A stretch of 37,302 nt of DNA from the NCBI RefSeq assembly GCF_003148475.1, contig NZ_QGGG01000026.1, forward strand, positions 1-37,302, read 5' to 3'. Each line of letters starts with the position of its first letter. Position 1 is the stretch's first letter. The DNA comes from Pseudaminobacter salicylatoxidans. GTDB lineage: Bacteria > Pseudomonadota > Alphaproteobacteria > Rhizobiales > Rhizobiaceae. The notes below the pieces were generated by a model that ran no database searches, was not told where the DNA came from, and worked only from the letters and a program-made list of their open reading frames with translations. A program made the position numbers and the translations under genes. This document shows positions 9,119 to 24,294 of the stretch, in pieces.

Positions 9119-9161
9119 CTTGAATATCGTCGGCGCAGAGCCTATTTAGAATTGTTCCAAA
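9119..9161 (+). promoter_or_regulatory. promoter with overlapping Irr-like iron box
   Basis: CTTGAA (9119-9124) and CTATTT (9142-9147) are separated by 17 bases, close to the alphaproteobacterial sigma-70 pattern CTTGAC-N17-CTATAT. An inverted repeat, TTTAGAA (9145-9151), TTG, TTCCAAA (9155-9161), covers the end of the -10 element and the start region. It differs by one base from the perfect palindrome TTTAGAA-N3-TTCTAAA expected for Irr in Rhizobiales. Binding here should block transcription, which fits repression of an Fe-S assembly gene when iron is short. The site ends 24 bases before the ATG of nfu. Confidence 0.7.
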
Positions 9162-9185: not shown

Positions 9186-9764
9186 ATGTTTATCCAGACC
9201 GAGGCGACCCCGAACCCGGCCACGTTGAAATTCCTGCCGGGCAAGGAAGTTCTGGTGGAAGGCACTGCCGATTTCCGCGAGGCCGAAGCCGCCGGCCAGG
9301 CTTCGCCGCTGGCTGGCCGCCTGTTTGCGATTCCCGGCGTGACGGGCGTGTTCTTCGGCTATGACTTCATCACCGTCACCAAGGAAGAAGGTCCCGACTG
9401 GCAGCATCTGAAGCCGGCGATCCTCGGCGCCATCATGGAGCATTTCATGTCGGGCGCGCCGGTGATGACGGCCGGCAGCCATGCGGCGCATGCCCATGCC
9501 GACGAGCATGGCGAGTTCTACGACGAGGGAGACATCGAAATCGTCGCCACGATCAAGGAACTGCTGGATACGCGCGTGCGCCCGGCCGTGGCCCAGGACG
9601 GCGGCGACATCACCTTCCGCGGCTATGAGAACGGCACCGTGTTCCTGCATATGAAGGGTGCCTGCGCCGGCTGCCCGTCGTCCACCGCAACCCTCAAGCA
9701 CGGCATCCAGAACCTGCTGCGCCACTTCGTCCCCGAAGTCGAGCATGTCGAGCAGGTCGGGTAA
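9186..9764 (+). CDS. Nfu-type Fe-S cluster scaffold/carrier (NifU C-terminal domain)
   Basis: A 192-residue protein with two domains. The N-terminal Nfu_N domain (about 1-90) starts MFIQTEATPNPATLKFLPG. The NifU-like domain (about 117-190) contains RPAVAQDGGDI and the cluster-binding CxxC at C160 and C163 (CAGCPSS). A histidine-rich linker, SHAAHAHADEH, lies between them. Family members bind a labile [4Fe-4S] cluster between two monomers and hand it to client enzymes. Length and layout match the alphaproteobacterial and mitochondrial Nfu1 type. The upstream promoter carries an Irr-like box, and a rho-independent terminator follows 31 bases after the stop, so it is probably a single-gene transcript. 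Confidence 0.94.
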   Translation: MFIQTEATPNPATLKFLPGKEVLVEGTADFREAEAAGQASPLAGRLFAIPGVTGVFFGYDFITVTKEEGPDWQHLKPAILGAIMEHFMSGAPVMTAGSHAAHAHADEHGEFYDEGDIEIVATIKELLDTRVRPAVAQDGGDITFRGYENGTVFLHMKGACAGCPSSTATLKHGIQNLLRHFVPEVEHVEQVG

Positions 9765-16489: not shown

Positions 16490-17317
16490 ATGACTACCGC
16501 AGCAGCGATCAACACTGCCGAGGCGAAGCCGCTTGCCTTCCCCATCCCGGCCAATGTCTATGCCGAAACCGTGGTTTCGGTGAAGCATTACACCGACCGG
16601 CTGTTTTCCTTCCGCATCACGCGGCCGCAATCGCTTCGCTTCCGTTCGGGCGAGTTCGTCATGATCGGGTTGCCCAACGCCGAAAAGCCGGTGTTCCGCG
16701 CCTATTCGGTTGCAAGCCCGGCCTGGGACGAGGAACTGGAGTTCTTCTCCATCAAGGTGCCGGACGGCCCGCTCACCCAGCATCTGCAGAAGATCCAGCC
16801 CGGCGACACGGTGCTGATGCGCCAGAAGGCGACCGGCACGCTGGTGCTCGACGCGCTGACGCCGGCAAAGCGTGTGTTCATGATCTCGACCGGCACCGGC
16901 ATCGCGCCGTTTGCCAGCCTGCTGCGCGACCCCGACACCTATGAAAAATTCGAGCAGGTGATCGTCACCCACACCTGCCGCGACGTGGCCGAGCTGACCT
17001 ATGGCAAGGAACTGGTGGCCGCGCTGGCGCAAGATCCGCTGATCGGCGAGCTGACGCATGGCCGCGTGACGCTGTACTCGACCACCACGCGCGAGGAATC
17101 GCCCTATATGGGCCGCATCACCGCGCTCATCGGCTCGGGCAAGTTCTACACCGATCTCGGCATCGACAAGCTCGATCCCGCGAACGACCGCGTCATGATC
17201 TGCGGTTCCATGCACATGCTCAAGGATGTGAAGGAACTGGTCGAGGGTCTCGGCTTCGAGGAAGGCTCGCTCAGCCAGCCCTCCACCTTCGTGGTGGAAC
17301 GCGCCTTCGTCGGCTGA
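16490..17317 (+). CDS. fpr: ferredoxin-NADP+ reductase
   Basis: A 275-residue single-chain flavoprotein of the bacterial FPR subclass that passes electrons between NADPH and ferredoxin or flavodoxin. The FAD-binding RAYSVASP and FRSGEFVMIG fall in the N-terminal half. The NADP-binding half has STGTGIAPFASLLRD, VTHTCRDVAELTYG and MICGSMHMLKD. The terminal FVVERAFVG resembles the extended C-terminus of alphaproteobacterial FPRs. Such enzymes support oxidative-stress defence and Fe-S and iron metabolism, and in other bacteria reduce Bfd for iron release from bacterioferritin. A Bfd/Bfr pair lies 6-7 kb downstream. A weak AAAGG precedes the ATG. Confidence 0.95.
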   Translation: MTTAAAINTAEAKPLAFPIPANVYAETVVSVKHYTDRLFSFRITRPQSLRFRSGEFVMIGLPNAEKPVFRAYSVASPAWDEELEFFSIKVPDGPLTQHLQKIQPGDTVLMRQKATGTLVLDALTPAKRVFMISTGTGIAPFASLLRDPDTYEKFEQVIVTHTCRDVAELTYGKELVAALAQDPLIGELTHGRVTLYSTTTREESPYMGRITALIGSGKFYTDLGIDKLDPANDRVMICGSMHMLKDVKELVEGLGFEEGSLSQPSTFVVERAFVG

Positions 17318-18041: not shown

Positions 18042-19286
18042 TTACGGAAGCGCTTGTCCTGCGCGCCTGTTGGCCTGCCGCGCCACGGCCCAGCCAAGCA
18101 GTGCCGCGCCGAGCAGCACCAGCGAGGCGATCAGGAACGAGGCGCCCGGATAGGGCAGCCACGAGCCCTCGCGCAGGGTGAAGGCATAGACCGCGCCGAA
18201 GAACAGCGGCGACACCACGCCGGCAATGCTGGCCACGCTCATATTGGCGCCCTGCAACTGGCCCTGTTCGGATTCGGAGACGCGCTGCGTCATCAGCGAC
18301 TGCAGCGTCGGCATCGCAAGCCCCCAAAGCGCATTGGGGAGCATGGCGAGCGTGAACATCACGCCGGTGGGCGCCAGGCCCATCCAGGCAATGCCGATCG
18401 CGCCGCCAAACAGGCCGAACACCATGGTGGCGCGGTCGCCGAAGCGCTTGACCATCGGCCCCACCAGAACGCCCTGCACCGTCATGTCGAGCAGGCCGAC
18501 CAGGGCCAGCAGCGTGCCGACTTCCCATGCATGCCAGCCGAAGCGATAGCCGGCATAGAGCACGAAGACGGCAGAGAAGACGTGGTGCGAGAAATGCAGC
18601 AGGAAGGTCACGACCGCGAGACCCGACAGTTCCGGATGCGAGCGCAGGAGCATCATTGCGCCGAACGGATTGGCGCGCTTCCACGAAAACGTCATGCGCT
18701 TGGCCGGTGCCAGCGATTCCGGCAGCACGAACAAGCCGTAGAGGAAGGCGATGCCGCTCATGCCCGCCGCGAACCAGAAGGGCGCGCGCGGCGAAATCTC
18801 GCCCAGCACGCCGCCCAGCAGTGGCCCGGCCACGAAGCCGGCGCTGAAGGCCGCACCGATCAGCCCGTAGCCACGCGCACGCTCTTCCGGCGCGGTGATG
18901 TCGGCCATATAGGCAAAGACGGTGGTGAAGCTCGACGAGGTTATGCCGGCGATGATGCGGCCCAGCGCCAGCCACCACAGGTTGGGCGCCAGCGCCATCA
19001 GCACATAGTCTGCGGCAAGCCCAAGGGTGGAAAGCAGGATGACGGGCCGCCGGCCATGCTGGTCGGACAGCGAGCCGATGATCGGCGAGGCGACGAACTG
19101 CATGCCCGCCCACAGCGCCACGAACACGCCGTTGATCCAGCCGGCCTCGGCGTTCGAGCCGGCGAATTCCTCGATCAGCGGCGGTAGCACCGGAATGATG
19201 ATACCCATCGCCACGATGTCGAGAACGGCCGTGACCATGATGAAGGCGATGGCTGCCTTGCGGCGGGAGCCGGAGAGAATGGACAT
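18042..19286 (-). CDS. MFS transporter, TetA/TCR-like multidrug exporter
   Basis: A 414-residue major facilitator protein with about twelve membrane segments. MFS motif A is GSLSDQHGRRPVIL in the loop between helices 2 and 3. A motif-C-like glycine-rich stretch, GAAFSAGFVAGPLLGGVLGE, lies in helix 5, typical of drug/H+ antiporters of the TetA (TCR) group. Substrate and true resistance function cannot be read from sequence, and no tetR gene adjoins it. A good promoter sits 34 bases upstream. It diverges from the aldehyde dehydrogenase gene. Confidence 0.92.
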   Translation of the reverse strand: MSILSGSRRKAAIAFIMVTAVLDIVAMGIIIPVLPPLIEEFAGSNAEAGWINGVFVALWAGMQFVASPIIGSLSDQHGRRPVILLSTLGLAADYVLMALAPNLWWLALGRIIAGITSSSFTTVFAYMADITAPEERARGYGLIGAAFSAGFVAGPLLGGVLGEISPRAPFWFAAGMSGIAFLYGLFVLPESLAPAKRMTFSWKRANPFGAMMLLRSHPELSGLAVVTFLLHFSHHVFSAVFVLYAGYRFGWHAWEVGTLLALVGLLDMTVQGVLVGPMVKRFGDRATMVFGLFGGAIGIAWMGLAPTGVMFTLAMLPNALWGLAMPTLQSLMTQRVSESEQGQLQGANMSVASIAGVVSPLFFGAVYAFTLREGSWLPYPGASFLIASLVLLGAALLGWAVARQANRRAGQALP

Positions 19287-21086: not shown

Positions 21087-22328
21087 TCAGGCCGCGGCGC
21101 TCTTTTGCGAGGCGGCGAAGGCGGCCTTCAGCGCATCGGCCCCTGCGGTCACGGTTTCGGGATGCGGCGAGAAGCCCGCGCCCAGCATCTTGCGGCCGAG
21201 CATATGGTCGGCGGGGCGGTTGACGGATTCGATCGCGATCAGCCGGTTGCCGCCATAATGGTAGACGGAGAACTTGTTGTCGGCCATGTCACCCACGACG
21301 ACGGTGCTGTCGCTTGCCCCGGCAAGGCCGACCATCTGCAGCTTCATGTCGCCGATGTCCGACCAGAACCATGGCACGCTGTCATAACGGCCTTCGTGGC
21401 CAAGAATGGTGCGTGCGGCCAGGCGCGCCTGATCGGTGGCGTTCTGCACCGATTCGAGCCGCACGTCCGTGCCTGAAAACAGGTGGCGATAGTTGGCGGC
21501 ATCGCCGATGGCGAGGATTTCCGGCTGCGAACTGCGCAGGCTGCCGTCCACGCGAATGCCGTTGGAGAGCGTCAGGCCGGCGGTCTGCGCCAGTTCGACA
21601 TTGGGCACCACGCCGATGCCCACGATCACCATTTGCGCCGGCAGCCGCTCGCCGGTTGAGAGGATGGCAGCGGTGACATGGCCGTTGCCGCCCTCCAGCC
21701 GCTGGATCGTGGTCTGCGTCAGCACGCGCACGCCCGTGCTTTCCAGCCGGTGGCGCACATGCGCCGAAATGGCGGGCGCGACCGCGCGGCCGAGCAGGCG
21801 CTCCTGCGCCTCCACCACCGTCACGTTACGGCCGCCAAGCCGCAGCGTGGCGGCGATCTCCAGCCCTATGAAGCCGCCGCCCAGAACGACGACATCGCCG
21901 GTGGTGGCGCTCAATTCGCGAATGAGGCGCGCATCCGCCACCGAGCGCAGCGACAGCACGCCGCCGAGTTCCGCGCCGGCAAGCTTCAGCTCGCGCGGTC
22001 GCGAGCCGGTGGCGAGGATCGCGGCATCGAACGGAATATGATCGCCACCGACCAGATCGAGACGCCGGCCGCCAAGGTCGATGCGCTCAACCATCGTGCC
22101 GGGCCGCAGGTCGATCCGGTTGTTGGAATAGAAGACGTCGGCACGCAGCATCTGCGGCTGGGCGGCAGGGTCCTTGATGAAGGTCTTCGAAAGCGGCGGC
22201 TTGTGGTAGGGCAATTCCGCTTCGTCGCCCACCAGCGTCACCGGCCCGTCATAGCCTTCCTCGCGCAAACTGGCGGCCGCCTGCACCCCGGCATGCCCCG
22301 CACCGACAATAACCACGCCGTTCTTCAT
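21087..22328 (-). CDS. FAD/NAD(P)H-dependent ferredoxin (rubredoxin) reductase-like oxidoreductase
   Basis: A 413-residue two-dinucleotide-binding flavoprotein. The FAD-binding fold opens the chain (VVIVGAGHAGVQAAASLRE). The NAD(P)H-binding fold is VVVLGGGFIGLEIAATLRLGG in the middle, and ILAIGDAANYRHL is the second FAD contact near the C-terminus. This is the putidaredoxin/rhodocoxin/rubredoxin reductase type that feeds electrons to small iron-sulfur proteins. The start is ATG 22328 (MKNGVVIVGAG); a longer frame to 22508 covers non-conserved leader DNA with direct repeats. It diverges from the bfd-bfr series across an Irr-type box, so it is a candidate reductase for Bfd. That partnership is inference; a ferredoxin of another pathway is the alternative. 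Confidence 0.92.
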   Translation of the reverse strand: MKNGVVIVGAGHAGVQAAASLREEGYDGPVTLVGDEAELPYHKPPLSKTFIKDPAAQPQMLRADVFYSNNRIDLRPGTMVERIDLGGRRLDLVGGDHIPFDAAILATGSRPRELKLAGAELGGVLSLRSVADARLIRELSATTGDVVVLGGGFIGLEIAATLRLGGRNVTVVEAQERLLGRAVAPAISAHVRHRLESTGVRVLTQTTIQRLEGGNGHVTAAILSTGERLPAQMVIVGIGVVPNVELAQTAGLTLSNGIRVDGSLRSSQPEILAIGDAANYRHLFSGTDVRLESVQNATDQARLAARTILGHEGRYDSVPWFWSDIGDMKLQMVGLAGASDSTVVVGDMADNKFSVYHYGGNRLIAIESVNRPADHMLGRKMLGAGFSPHPETVTAGADALKAAFAASQKSAAA

Positions 22329-22347
22329 GGCACCCGGACTTTTCTCT

Positions 22348-22380
22348 TTCGATCCAGAATAACGCTTCGACCCAGAATAA
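22348..22380. repeat. pair of 15-bp direct repeats in the reductase leader
   Basis: TTCGATCCAGAATAA (22348-22362) and TTCGACCCAGAATAA (22366-22380) differ at one base and repeat with an 18-base period. They end 20 bases upstream of the reductase ATG (minus strand). The spacing of nearly two helical turns suits two protein subunits bound to one DNA face, or it is a chance tandem duplication. I do not recognise the motif. Confidence 0.7.
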
Positions 22381-22529
22381 AGCGCCGCGCTATCGCCAAA
22401 TTGTCCCGTTCCGACAAGGCGATAGCCTTCTGGGTCGCACTTGGGACAGGCCGCTGTCAATAAGGCCGATCGCCGCGCGAAGGAAAGTGGCGACGCCGGT
22501 GACGGCATTGTGGCCGACCTGCCATAAAC

Positions 22530-22563
22530 TTGACATATATAGTTTAGAATAGTTCTAAACTAT
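22530..22563. promoter_or_regulatory. Irr-type iron control element with promoter elements
   Basis: A perfect inverted repeat with 11-bp arms ATAGTTTAGAA (22539-22549) and TTCTAAACTAT (22553-22563), and spacer TAG, contains the Rhizobiales Irr box pattern TTTAGAA-N3-TTCTAAA. A plus-strand -35 element TTGACA (22530-22535) lies immediately before it, so the palindrome covers the expected -10. On the minus strand CTATAT (rc of 22537-22542) resembles a -10 for the divergent reductase gene. Irr accumulates when iron is short and typically represses iron-storage and iron-using genes, which fits the bfd-bfr genes downstream. Confidence 0.82.
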
Positions 22564-22766
22564 TGATTTATAAGGCATATTCTGTCGGATTCCTGTTGAC
22601 TCCCCGCGCCAGTCTGGTTTTATGCATCATGCCTCGATGGGGCAAACCTTTGATGTCTGGGCCTTGAACCCGTTCGATTGGAGGAAGTGGTGTCTGTTTC
22701 TGCCTGCCTGCGCGCTCGCGCGCATCGTTTTTCCCTGCATGTCGAAAGCCTGCCGGTGTCGCACTG

Positions 22767-23273
22767 ATGTCGCTGCGGATCACCGATCATGACGGCCATC
22801 AGGGCTGCTATTTCGAGCGCACGCCGGAAAAGCTGGTTCTGGAAGGCTATCGCCACTGGCTGGCCGGCTTCGAAACCGGCTCCGTCGCGCCCTGGGAGCT
22901 GACGCTTACGCTCTACAGCGAACTGCTCGGCCCCGCTGCGGGTCGGCGCGCCATGAGCGAGCTTTCGCATTTCGTGCGTACGCTCAGGCAATGCGCGGCG
23001 TGTCCGCTGCGCAGCTTCCCCTTCGGTGCGCATCATGTCTGCCGCGACGAATGTCTCGCGCTCGGCCTCATTGCTGCCTTGCAGCACGGGCAGGAGCAAA
23101 CGGCGCTTTTGTGCCTGGACGCCATGGCGTGTCGTCCGCTGCAGCAGGCCGTCGGCGCGGCGGCCGGCGATTTTGCCCAAACCCTTTCGGGCCTGGATCA
23201 GCATCTCCTGCCCATTCCGCAAGGCGCGATCGAAGACGTGCTGTCGCGCGCAACGGCCAGGACGATCCATTGA
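22767..23273 (+). CDS. uncharacterised Cys-rich protein of the iron-storage locus
   Basis: A 168-residue protein I do not recognise. It is predicted soluble, with no signal peptide or membrane segment. Seven cysteines occur (14, 76, 79, 92, 96, 116, 122). Four cluster as C76-x2-C79 (RQCAACP) and C92-x3-C96 (HHVCRDEC), with His89 and His90 beside them, which could bind a metal or Fe-S cluster. Aromatic residues are dense near the N-terminus (CYFERTPEKLVLEGYRHWLAGFE). The ATG at 22767 lacks a clear ribosome-binding site and the frame is open upstream, so the start is uncertain. It is the first gene downstream of the Irr box and is followed after 8 bases by a small exported peptide, then bfd and bfr, suggesting an iron-linked role. 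Coding style matches its neighbours. Confidence 0.72.
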   Translation: MSLRITDHDGHQGCYFERTPEKLVLEGYRHWLAGFETGSVAPWELTLTLYSELLGPAAGRRAMSELSHFVRTLRQCAACPLRSFPFGAHHVCRDECLALGLIAALQHGQEQTALLCLDAMACRPLQQAVGAAAGDFAQTLSGLDQHLLPIPQGAIEDVLSRATARTIH

Positions 23274-23281
23274 CGAGGCAT

Positions 23282-23467
23282 ATGATGAGACCAGCAGTAA
23301 TGACGGTTCGCAATGCCCGCCTGGCGGCAGTGGCAGCCACGGCGGCGCTGACGGCGGCGGCTTTCATCCTTCCGGCCAAGGCGACGGTTTCGACGGTGCA
23401 GAAGCATGAGGTCTTCGCGCCGAAACCCGAGGTCAGGACGGCATCTTCCAATGTGTCCTTTCACTGA
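23282..23467 (+). CDS. small exported peptide (61 aa)
   Basis: This frame encodes 61 residues. A basic start with several Met (MMRPAVMTVRNAR) is followed by a hydrophobic stretch rich in Ala (LAAVAATAALTAAAFILP), then AKA, a good signal-peptidase site. The mature part would be about 27 residues (TVSTVQKHEVFAPKPEVRT and onwards), without Cys. It starts 8 bases after the upstream stop and ends 64 bases before bfd. A weak GAGG (23275-23278) precedes the ATG. No known family is recognised. The signal-peptide shape and operon position support a real gene; it could still be a chance frame. Confidence 0.55.
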   Translation: MMRPAVMTVRNARLAAVAATAALTAAAFILPAKATVSTVQKHEVFAPKPEVRTASSNVSFH

Positions 23468-23531
23468 GGAAAGCGCATAAGAATTCCAGCCAAGCGGCGC
23501 AACAGGACGCCGCCAGCCAGCAGAGCAAGAC

Positions 23532-23843
23532 ATGCTTGTATGCCACTGTAACCTGATAGCCGAGAAGGAGATCGAAGACGCGATCATAGAGCTTCTCCAA
23601 GCCGATCCCTGGCAACTCGTCGTGCCGGCGAAGGTCTATCATTCGCTGAAGAAGCGCGGACGCTGTTGCGGCTGCTTCCCAAATGTGGTGGAAACTATCA
23701 TTCGGGTCACCGAGCACTACCATCAGAGCTTGGTCACGAGTGAGATGGATGTCGTTTCACACCTGGACCGCGTGAGGGATTTGCGGGTCCAATATGGGAG
23801 CAGAAGCCATGAAGGGCGAAAAACAGGTCATCGAGCGGCTTAA
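23532..23843 (+). CDS. bfd: bacterioferritin-associated ferredoxin-like [2Fe-2S] protein
   Basis: A 103-residue protein with the BFD-like Fer2 fold. [18 protein letters not shown] gives cluster ligands C4 and C6, and [16 protein letters not shown] gives C45 and C48 as the second C-x2-C, with an extra C46. In E. coli and Pseudomonas Bfd reduces bacterioferritin to release stored iron. About 64 residues are typical; here the domain ends near residue 68 and about 35 further residues follow. The last 35 bases overlap the start of bfr in another frame, implying translational coupling. The extension carries no recognisable motif. Position beside bfr and downstream of an Irr box supports the call. 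Confidence 0.88.
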
Positions 23844-24294
23844 CGAAGCTCTGTTTCTGGAGCTTGGCGCCGTCAATCAGTACTGGCTCCACTATCGCCT
23901 GCTTGACGACTGGGGCTACACCAGGCTCGCCAAGAAGGAACGCGAGGAATCAATCGAAGAGATGCACCACGCAGACAAGCTGGTACAGCGTATCATCTTC
24001 CTCGAAGGCCATCCCAACCTGCAGTCGGTTGCGCCGCTGCGCATCGGCCAGAATGTGAAGGAAGTGCTCGAGGCCGACCTTGCCGGCGAGTATGATGCCC
24101 GCACCTCCTACAAGAAGTCGCGCGAAATCTGCCAGGAACTCGGCGACTACGTGACCATGAAGCTTTTCGAGGAACTGCTGAAGGACGAGGAGGGCCATAT
24201 CGACTTCCTCGAAACCCAGCTCCAGTTGCTGAACGAGATCGGCGAAGCCAAATACGGCCAGCTCAACGCCGACCCGGCCAACGACGCCGAATAA
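23809..24294 (+). CDS. bfr: bacterioferritin
   Basis: A 161-residue ferritin-like four-helix protein forming a 24-subunit haem-containing iron store. The haem ligand Met52 is present, and so are all six ferroxidase residues at E. coli numbering: Glu18, Glu51, His54, Glu94, Glu127 and His130. Segments [20 protein letters not shown] and [14 protein letters not shown] are diagnostic. The start at ATG 23809 has GGGAG upstream and matches the family N-terminus; an ATG five codons earlier is possible. It overlaps the end of bfd by 35 bases. Irr control from the box at 22539 would raise expression when iron is plentiful. Confidence 0.97.

Follow-up and report, generated by a model that had tools for sequence, protein, structure and literature searches.

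Here we analyze an iron-related gene cluster of Pseudaminobacter salicylatoxidans together with a conserved hairpin in its leader, which recurs before iron genes in other genomes of the order Hyphomicrobiales. The cluster lies in a window of 37,302 nucleotides (nt), i.e., the whole stretch analyzed, of contig NZ_QGGG01000026.1 (assembly GCF_003148475.1). A flavoenzyme gene on the reverse strand (21087–22328) diverges from four genes on the forward strand that encode a Cys-rich protein (22767–23273), a small peptide (23285–23467), a Bfd-like [2Fe-2S] ferredoxin (23532–23843) and a bacterioferritin (23794–24294). Between the two sides lie a palindromic Irr-type box (22543–22559, strand-neutral), a candidate promoter (22596–22624, forward strand) and the 39-nt hairpin (22647–22685, forward strand). 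Our open reading frame (ORF) and domain checks bore out the gene order and strands described in an earlier note on this DNA. This note had also recognized the perfect palindrome between the two gene sides, which we confirm, but it had overlooked the conserved hairpin.

Between box and Cys gene, the leader block CCTTTGATGTCTGGGCCTTGAACCCGTTCGATTGGAGGA is almost unchanged across loci while its surroundings have diverged. Conservation of the block amounts to 1.83 bits per site compared with 0.15 and 0.38 in its flanks (36 nonredundant loci), and the 39 nt were found with at most five mismatches in 67 of the 96 loci that carry a Cys gene. When 297 genomes from this order were scanned with a pattern, blind to gene content, the hairpin core turned up at 37 places in 33 genomes. 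With a covariance model built from 38 distinct copies, we obtained matches (E ≤ 0.01) in 97 of 397 sampled Hyphomicrobiales genomes and in 49 of 142 genera. In a sample of 385 genomes from the class, each model recovered the window genome and otherwise gave just two weak matches, in searches with the stricter Infernal filters, which weak copies may escape; no gene of the iron set lies downstream of the two weak matches of the first model. Judged from these scans, the element seems confined to Hyphomicrobiales within our sample. At the gathering scores of Rfam 15, only tRNAs were matched in a set of 8 and a set of 20 loci, with no match to the hairpin, and window positions 22440–22800 gave no Rfam 15 match up to an E value of 10. 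We found no published description of this leader in the open-licence literature, a scope mostly without subscription papers. As a leader RNA, the hairpin is a new class of a known kind; should an iron response be confirmed, it would represent a new kind of iron control.

In the hairpin, CCUUUGAU pairs with AUUGGAGG to form the outer stem, followed by a bulge and an inner stem that closes in GGG(CCUUGAA)CCC. In the 38 copies found by sequence alone, 84.4% of the alignment cells pair, and cells with double changes number 23 compared with 11.5 (standard deviation 2.6) after shuffling, with none of 500 shuffles reaching this value. Slid versions of the pairing scored lower in the same test. In an enlarged alignment of 83 copies, double changes occur in 10 of the 15 pairs and affect 85 cells compared with 29.1 (standard deviation 7.6) in shuffled versions. 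Of these copies, 28 come from the 38 distinct early ones and 55 from the 71 distinct ones found later; near-duplicates had been dropped by eye, and matches shorter than 40 nt were excluded. RNAalifold recovered the same hairpin core unprompted. The compensatory changes keep base pairs intact, as is typical of a structured cis-regulatory RNA. The loop reads CCTTGAA without change in 56 of the 83 copies, and several of the outer pairs are weak U-G pairs. Just 5′ of the hairpin, the minimum-energy fold contains a further, variable hairpin that we call P0 (22630–22644, forward strand), and P0-like inverted repeats were seen by eye elsewhere.

All 37 places of the pattern scan precede iron genes, namely a Cys gene, imelysin, bfd–bfr, FbpA, or a cupredoxin with FTR1 behind it. 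From the covariance model, we took a further 86 matches, located in 80 loci, with about 20 weaker matches (E about 0.002 to 0.01) outside this set. An iron-linked gene follows on the same strand in 82 of the 86, comprising 74 with a match to the iron set and eight more that precede FeoA–FeoB, a cupredoxin plus FTR1, or an ABM (IsdG-like) monooxygenase. Five of these eight were assigned by Pfam, and those of loci L220, L258 and L279 were placed by likeness of their translations. Behind the strongest model matches (L170 and L173–L201), many of which coincide with places of the pattern scan, iron-set genes were found in 30 of 30 cases. Such a fixed position, always on the same strand and in leaders of genes with related functions, is a hallmark of cis-regulatory RNA. 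The hairpin nearly always stands before iron genes, and these belong to unrelated families: FbpA, FeoAB, FTR1, the ABM/IsdG-like monooxygenase, imelysin/DHOR, bfd–bfr and the Cys protein.

The 3′ strand of the hairpin contains the Shine–Dalgarno sequence GGAGGA (22680–22685). In 78 of the 86 further matches, GGAG is in place, and in 62 a start-like triplet follows 6 or 7 nt on. At six FbpA loci, the Shine–Dalgarno sequence within the stem belongs to FbpA itself; at other loci, it precedes a short frame whose end lies close to the main gene. In the window, this predicted ORF has 25 codons (22690–22767, forward strand) and a GTG start, with a second GTG at 22687, and its stop codon and the Cys gene start overlap.

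The box upstream would link the cluster to transcriptional iron control. It is an ICE-like perfect palindrome, TTTAGAATAGTTCTAAA, where ICE denotes the iron control element, and can be stretched by eye to 22540–22564. Sites of the palindrome pattern with up to three mismatches number three in the window, with 0.10 expected. The whole genome contains two perfect TTTAGAANNNTTCTAAA sites, i.e., the cluster box and one located 16 nt ahead of the listed start of a gene for the iron exporter MbfA (NCBIfam, 582 bits, cut-off 450). A review names MbfA as an Irr target (PMC7762939). Of three Fur-family proteins encoded in the genome, one is IrrA (219.8 bits, cut-off 150). ICE-like boxes with zero to three mismatches were found again 5′ of most related loci. 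The two features that mark an Irr (ICE) regulon, a palindrome of the form TTTAGAA-N3-TTCTAAA near a promoter and an encoded Irr, are both present. Since the 17-mer is shared with mbfA, further boxes with one or two mismatches occur in the genome, and IrrA is encoded, the Irr reading of the palindrome is supported as far as sequence goes. Control of the cluster by this box, as the earlier note had proposed, gains further support from the recurrence of the box at related loci. Elsewhere in the window, an Irr-type box with one mismatch (9145–9161) lies directly 5′ of an NfuA-like scaffold gene (9186–9764), and another such site of this genome lies between a cysteine desulfurase and a hydrolase gene.

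Between box and hairpin, a candidate promoter consists of TTGACT (22596–22601), a 17-nt spacer and TTTATG (22619–22624), from which transcription would start near 22631. In 104 of 121 nonredundant copies, the stretch that separates box and hairpin includes TTGAC at 25–80 nt 5′ of the hairpin, compared with 3–10 copies for six other pentamers, and a weaker TTTAT-like hexamer follows about 23 nt beyond TTGAC. An ICE-like box with up to two mismatches stands upstream of the hairpin in 64 of these 121 copies, mostly at a distance of about 90–116 nt; four decoy patterns gave 0, 1, 0 and 0. The same review describes that Irr binds ICE boxes and that box location decides between repression and activation (PMC7762939). 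Here, the box lies about 35 nt 5′ of the candidate −35 element, whereas at mbfA it adjoins the start codon. Because the box is upstream of the candidate promoter, Irr is more likely an activator than a repressor; by its spacing, the box would fit activation by Irr at low iron and not the position expected of repressed iron storage.

We consider it probable that the cluster belongs to an iron regulon tied to Irr and that the mRNAs of this regulon bear a new cis-regulatory RNA that adds translational control. Conservation, base pairing, position, gene association and the link to the Irr box come directly from our computations; from them, we infer activation by Irr, a translational switch and its signal as follows. 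Irr would bind the palindrome upstream of the promoter and more likely activate it, giving a transcript that may begin about 15 nt 5′ of the hairpin. Since the outer stem pairs CCUUUGAU with AUUGGAGG, it would hide the Shine–Dalgarno sequence, and the near-constant CCUUGAA loop is the probable recognition part for a factor or ligand. Binding or release of this factor or ligand in response to the iron state would then open the hairpin, and the next frame could be translated. This frame would be either the iron gene itself, as for FbpA, FeoA or the cupredoxin before FTR1, or a short coupled upstream frame, as at Cys, imelysin and bfd loci. The mix of uptake genes (FbpA, FeoAB, FTR1, imelysin and the ABM protein, which may open heme) with bfd–bfr fits a signal of iron need.

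Several observations weigh against this view. No model match was obtained in 300 of the 397 sampled genomes. Four of the 86 further matches have no assigned iron gene: L218, where an ABM gene comes only at 1.3 kb downstream of the hairpin copy, L250, one match at a contig end and one partial match of 21 nt. The 83-copy alignment leans towards structure because 55 of its copies came from a model that included structure. The 38 copies found by sequence are the fairer test of covariation, although the shuffles keep relatedness. In the main type, three inner pairs are often open (columns 15–17, unpaired in 34, 29 and 12 of the 38 copies). Furthermore, the window 39-mer alone folds no better than its shuffles (z-score −0.90). 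In the 73-nt window leader, the hairpin is the minimum-energy fold, but with a z-score of +0.48, 133 of 200 shuffles were as good. Over single copies, the folding z-score ranges from about −0.9 for the window to −3.1. The evidence for the hairpin is therefore comparative.

The conserved block might alternatively be explained without an RNA that responds to iron. It could encode a conserved short peptide, in a frame containing FDVWALNPFDWR, or a ribosome-stalling M-x-G-P-stop frame, so that coding and not RNA shape would be conserved. The frame FDVWALNPFDWR is indeed open in many loci, with some changes being synonymous, and 57 of the 83 copies have a start-like triplet at the M-x-G-P place. 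Yet the other 26 lack this triplet, only 36 have both the triplet and the CCTTGA on which the stop depends, and length changes break the frame in six copies. Moreover, paired positions co-change, and within the frame GCC and AAC show little variation despite their free third sites, so that we regard conserved coding as very unlikely. Hardly more can be said for a DNA operator of a second transcription factor, to which we give an equally small chance: a block that occurs once in each leader and varies little in its distance to the Irr box would suit such a site, but the block lies 3′ of the candidate promoter, directly overlaps the Shine–Dalgarno sequence of the next frame, and is not itself a duplex palindrome, and its double changes preserve pairs across the loop.

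More weight, albeit still on the unlikely side, is due to a plain hairpin that hides the Shine–Dalgarno sequence with no iron signal, e.g., an RNA thermometer or a device that lowers translation. Direct pairing with the ribosome site and the several weak U-G pairs of the outer stem would be in line with this, but a near-constant 7-nt loop and the near-exclusive association with iron genes would then be needless. The coding, operator and thermometer readings are all less likely than an iron-sensing hairpin, which we retain as the preferred interpretation.

The Cys-rich protein downstream of the hairpin is cytosolic and has 168 residues; it gave no Pfam, NCBIfam or PHROG match and belongs to an unnamed family. 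Its AlphaFold2 model is all-helical (mean predicted local distance difference test score, 89.4), and no fold match at E ≤ 0.001 was present among the 146 PDB matches listed. In a family alignment of 48 rows, only R29 and E95 are invariant, and many members have a CRDEC motif; since the cysteines are not invariant, an iron–sulfur reading of this protein is weakened. Family members were found in 20 of 61 relatives and in 132 of the 397 genomes of the order. For the relatives scan, 80 of 102 were retained. The link of this gene to iron genes, suspected before from the window, is borne out in many genera. Among the 96 Cys loci, 26 have imelysin as the next gene, 19 contain bfd or bfr in their flanks, with bfr near the Cys gene in 17, and five include the flavoenzyme. 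This layout omits L030–L033; L030 and L031 coincide in contig and region with L058 and L061, and L032 and L033 are without flavoenzyme. The fullest arrangement reads Cys, imelysin, bfd, bfr, DHOR, imelysin, DUF1513, and in more distant members the Cys gene is flanked by an FbpA-like and an FbpB-like gene that belong to an iron-type ATP-binding cassette transporter. Hairpin and Cys gene co-occur in 65 of the 397 genomes, with the element only in 32, the Cys gene only in 67 and neither in 233 (odds ratio 7.1, relatedness ignored). We rejected the Cys protein as the sole partner of the RNA, as those 32 genomes hold the element without a detected Cys gene. Some genomes contain two diverged Cys-family copies under divergent hairpin copies (L263, L264 and L270), and by eye, a gene of unknown family behind the hairpin copy of L250 (2413–2997) has a faint resemblance to the Cys family. 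One record labelled Bacillus subtilis (L091, JAHREI010000001.1) contains a locus nearly identical to that of Pseudochrobactrum, so its label looks wrong.

The small peptide of 60 residues had been read in the earlier note as an exported accessory factor of iron release. This did not hold up, and we rejected an independent accessory role, as the peptide is homologous to an imelysin leader at the same place. In relatives, imelysin starts about 11 nt past the Cys gene, the place where the 60-residue ORF begins in the window. Against 24 imelysin leaders, the peptide scored 83–98 with eight (0 of 2000 shuffles as high) and at most 38 with the other 16, and its DNA is 78–84% identical to five of seven imelysin leaders compared. 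Position and leader alignment match imelysin starts, hence the imelysin gene was reduced to its leader and the rest was lost. The M75 imelysin body is absent from this 60-residue ORF, which has no Pfam match, and no DHOR (PF06537) was found in the window genome. The only two imelysin domains of this genome sit in an efe-like operon, which comprises a permease, a cupredoxin–imelysin protein, a Dyp-type peroxidase and a second imelysin (L051, 4378–8703) and has an ICE-like box with two mismatches upstream. Behind the Cys gene, a peptide-like ORF is found in 57 of 70 loci without imelysin. For its N-terminal 25 codons, the ratio of nonsynonymous to synonymous substitution rates is about 0.14 in a set of 16 loci and 0.22 in one of 21, compared with 0.54 and 0.33 for the tails, where only pairs of equal length were used; amino acid conservation of these ORFs is partly built in because they were chosen by a sequence pattern. 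By these alignments, the imelysin gene has shrunk to its signal peptide, which is kept as a microprotein under purifying selection, clearest in the membrane part.

The divergent flavoenzyme carries Pyr_redox_2 (PF07992) plus Reductase_C (PF14759) and is of the putidaredoxin-reductase type, as had been stated before; its closest solved relatives are 3fg2, 3lxd and 1q1r. We took the in-frame ATG at 22328 as its start, the longest ORF beginning at 22508. The Bfd-like protein contains C-x-C and C-x2-C and matches PF04324 with E 1.5e-4 and 22.5 bits, just under the cut-off of 26, and gave no PDB sequence match at E ≤ 1. The bacterioferritin, with a listed start at 23794 and a second ATG at 23809, passes TIGR00754 (183.6 bits, cut-off 125.55). 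From these genes, an alternative iron-release chain had been proposed, in which electrons would pass from the flavoenzyme via Bfd to Bfr as a self-contained system in which the unknown proteins would play accessory roles. All four of reductase, Cys gene, bfd and bfr are indeed combined in 5 of the 96 Cys loci, i.e., in the window, Mesorhizobium zhangyense, Pseudaminobacter, Corticibacterium and Oryzicola. The set is hence not unique to this genome, yet the flavoenzyme is not within the available flanks at the other 91 loci. In seven Mesorhizobium-like loci, the flavoenzyme stands divergent beside imelysin with no bfr within 1.5 kb; it appears to accompany the cluster only in Mesorhizobium-like lineages. 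Furthermore, the known type of Bfd partner is available since an Fpr-type ferredoxin-NADP reductase is encoded in the window itself (16490–17317; best solved match E 1.8e-103, 2qdx 2.8e-73). Given these points and the descent of the peptide from an imelysin leader, the alternative chain is not supported, and we assign it little probability. The window also encodes a major facilitator superfamily transporter (18042–19286) whose scores on Tet(A/B/C)-type models are high, yet below the cut-offs (323 versus 475 bits).

Iron control in alphaproteobacteria is described in a review as transcriptional, by Irr and RirA (PMC7762939). The cluster shares with the Irr/ICE regulon its Irr-type box, an encoded IrrA and the 17-mer of mbfA, but differs by the additional leader hairpin and, unlike mbfA, by a box 5′ of the candidate promoter. 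The operons described for imelysins pair EfeB-like or DHOR peroxidases with imelysins (PMC3143127). Relatives of our locus likewise carry imelysin, DHOR, imelysin and DUF1513, whereas the window genome has lost DHOR and this imelysin and retains the leader peptide alone, an example of a gene shrunk to its signal peptide yet still under selection. From the same order, Rhizobiales-1, Rhizobiales-2 and flg-Rhizobiales are listed as structured RNA candidates in a table of PMC2864571. The latter two are in Rfam, and neither matched the hairpin; Rhizobiales-1 is marked as not cis-regulatory and has no Rfam number in its table row.

Hairpin copies before varied iron genes across one order point to RNA-level control of iron supply that has not been described before. 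A leader RNA shared by unrelated iron genes, if true, would bring a translational layer and a new sensor into alphaproteobacterial iron control. The hairpin also offers a signature for iron genes of unknown function, such as the Cys-rich family.

Leader RNAs that hide the Shine–Dalgarno sequence include translational riboswitches, RNA thermometers and protein operators. Like these, the element forms a hairpin within a short leader and has the Shine–Dalgarno sequence on the 3′ strand of this hairpin; it differs in having no Rfam family match and in being one sequence class across unrelated iron genes. In eukaryotes, the mRNAs of several iron genes carry the iron-responsive element, a small hairpin that has a constant loop and is bound by iron regulatory proteins. 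The hairpin described here is bacterial, has another loop and sequence, and pairs with the ribosome site, and we claim no homology. We may nonetheless speculate, with somewhat less than even confidence, that it is a convergent bacterial counterpart, in which one RNA-binding factor or iron-derived ligand would read the CCUUGAA hairpin and switch translation of a regulon for iron uptake, mobilization and storage in Hyphomicrobiales, on top of transcription driven by Irr.

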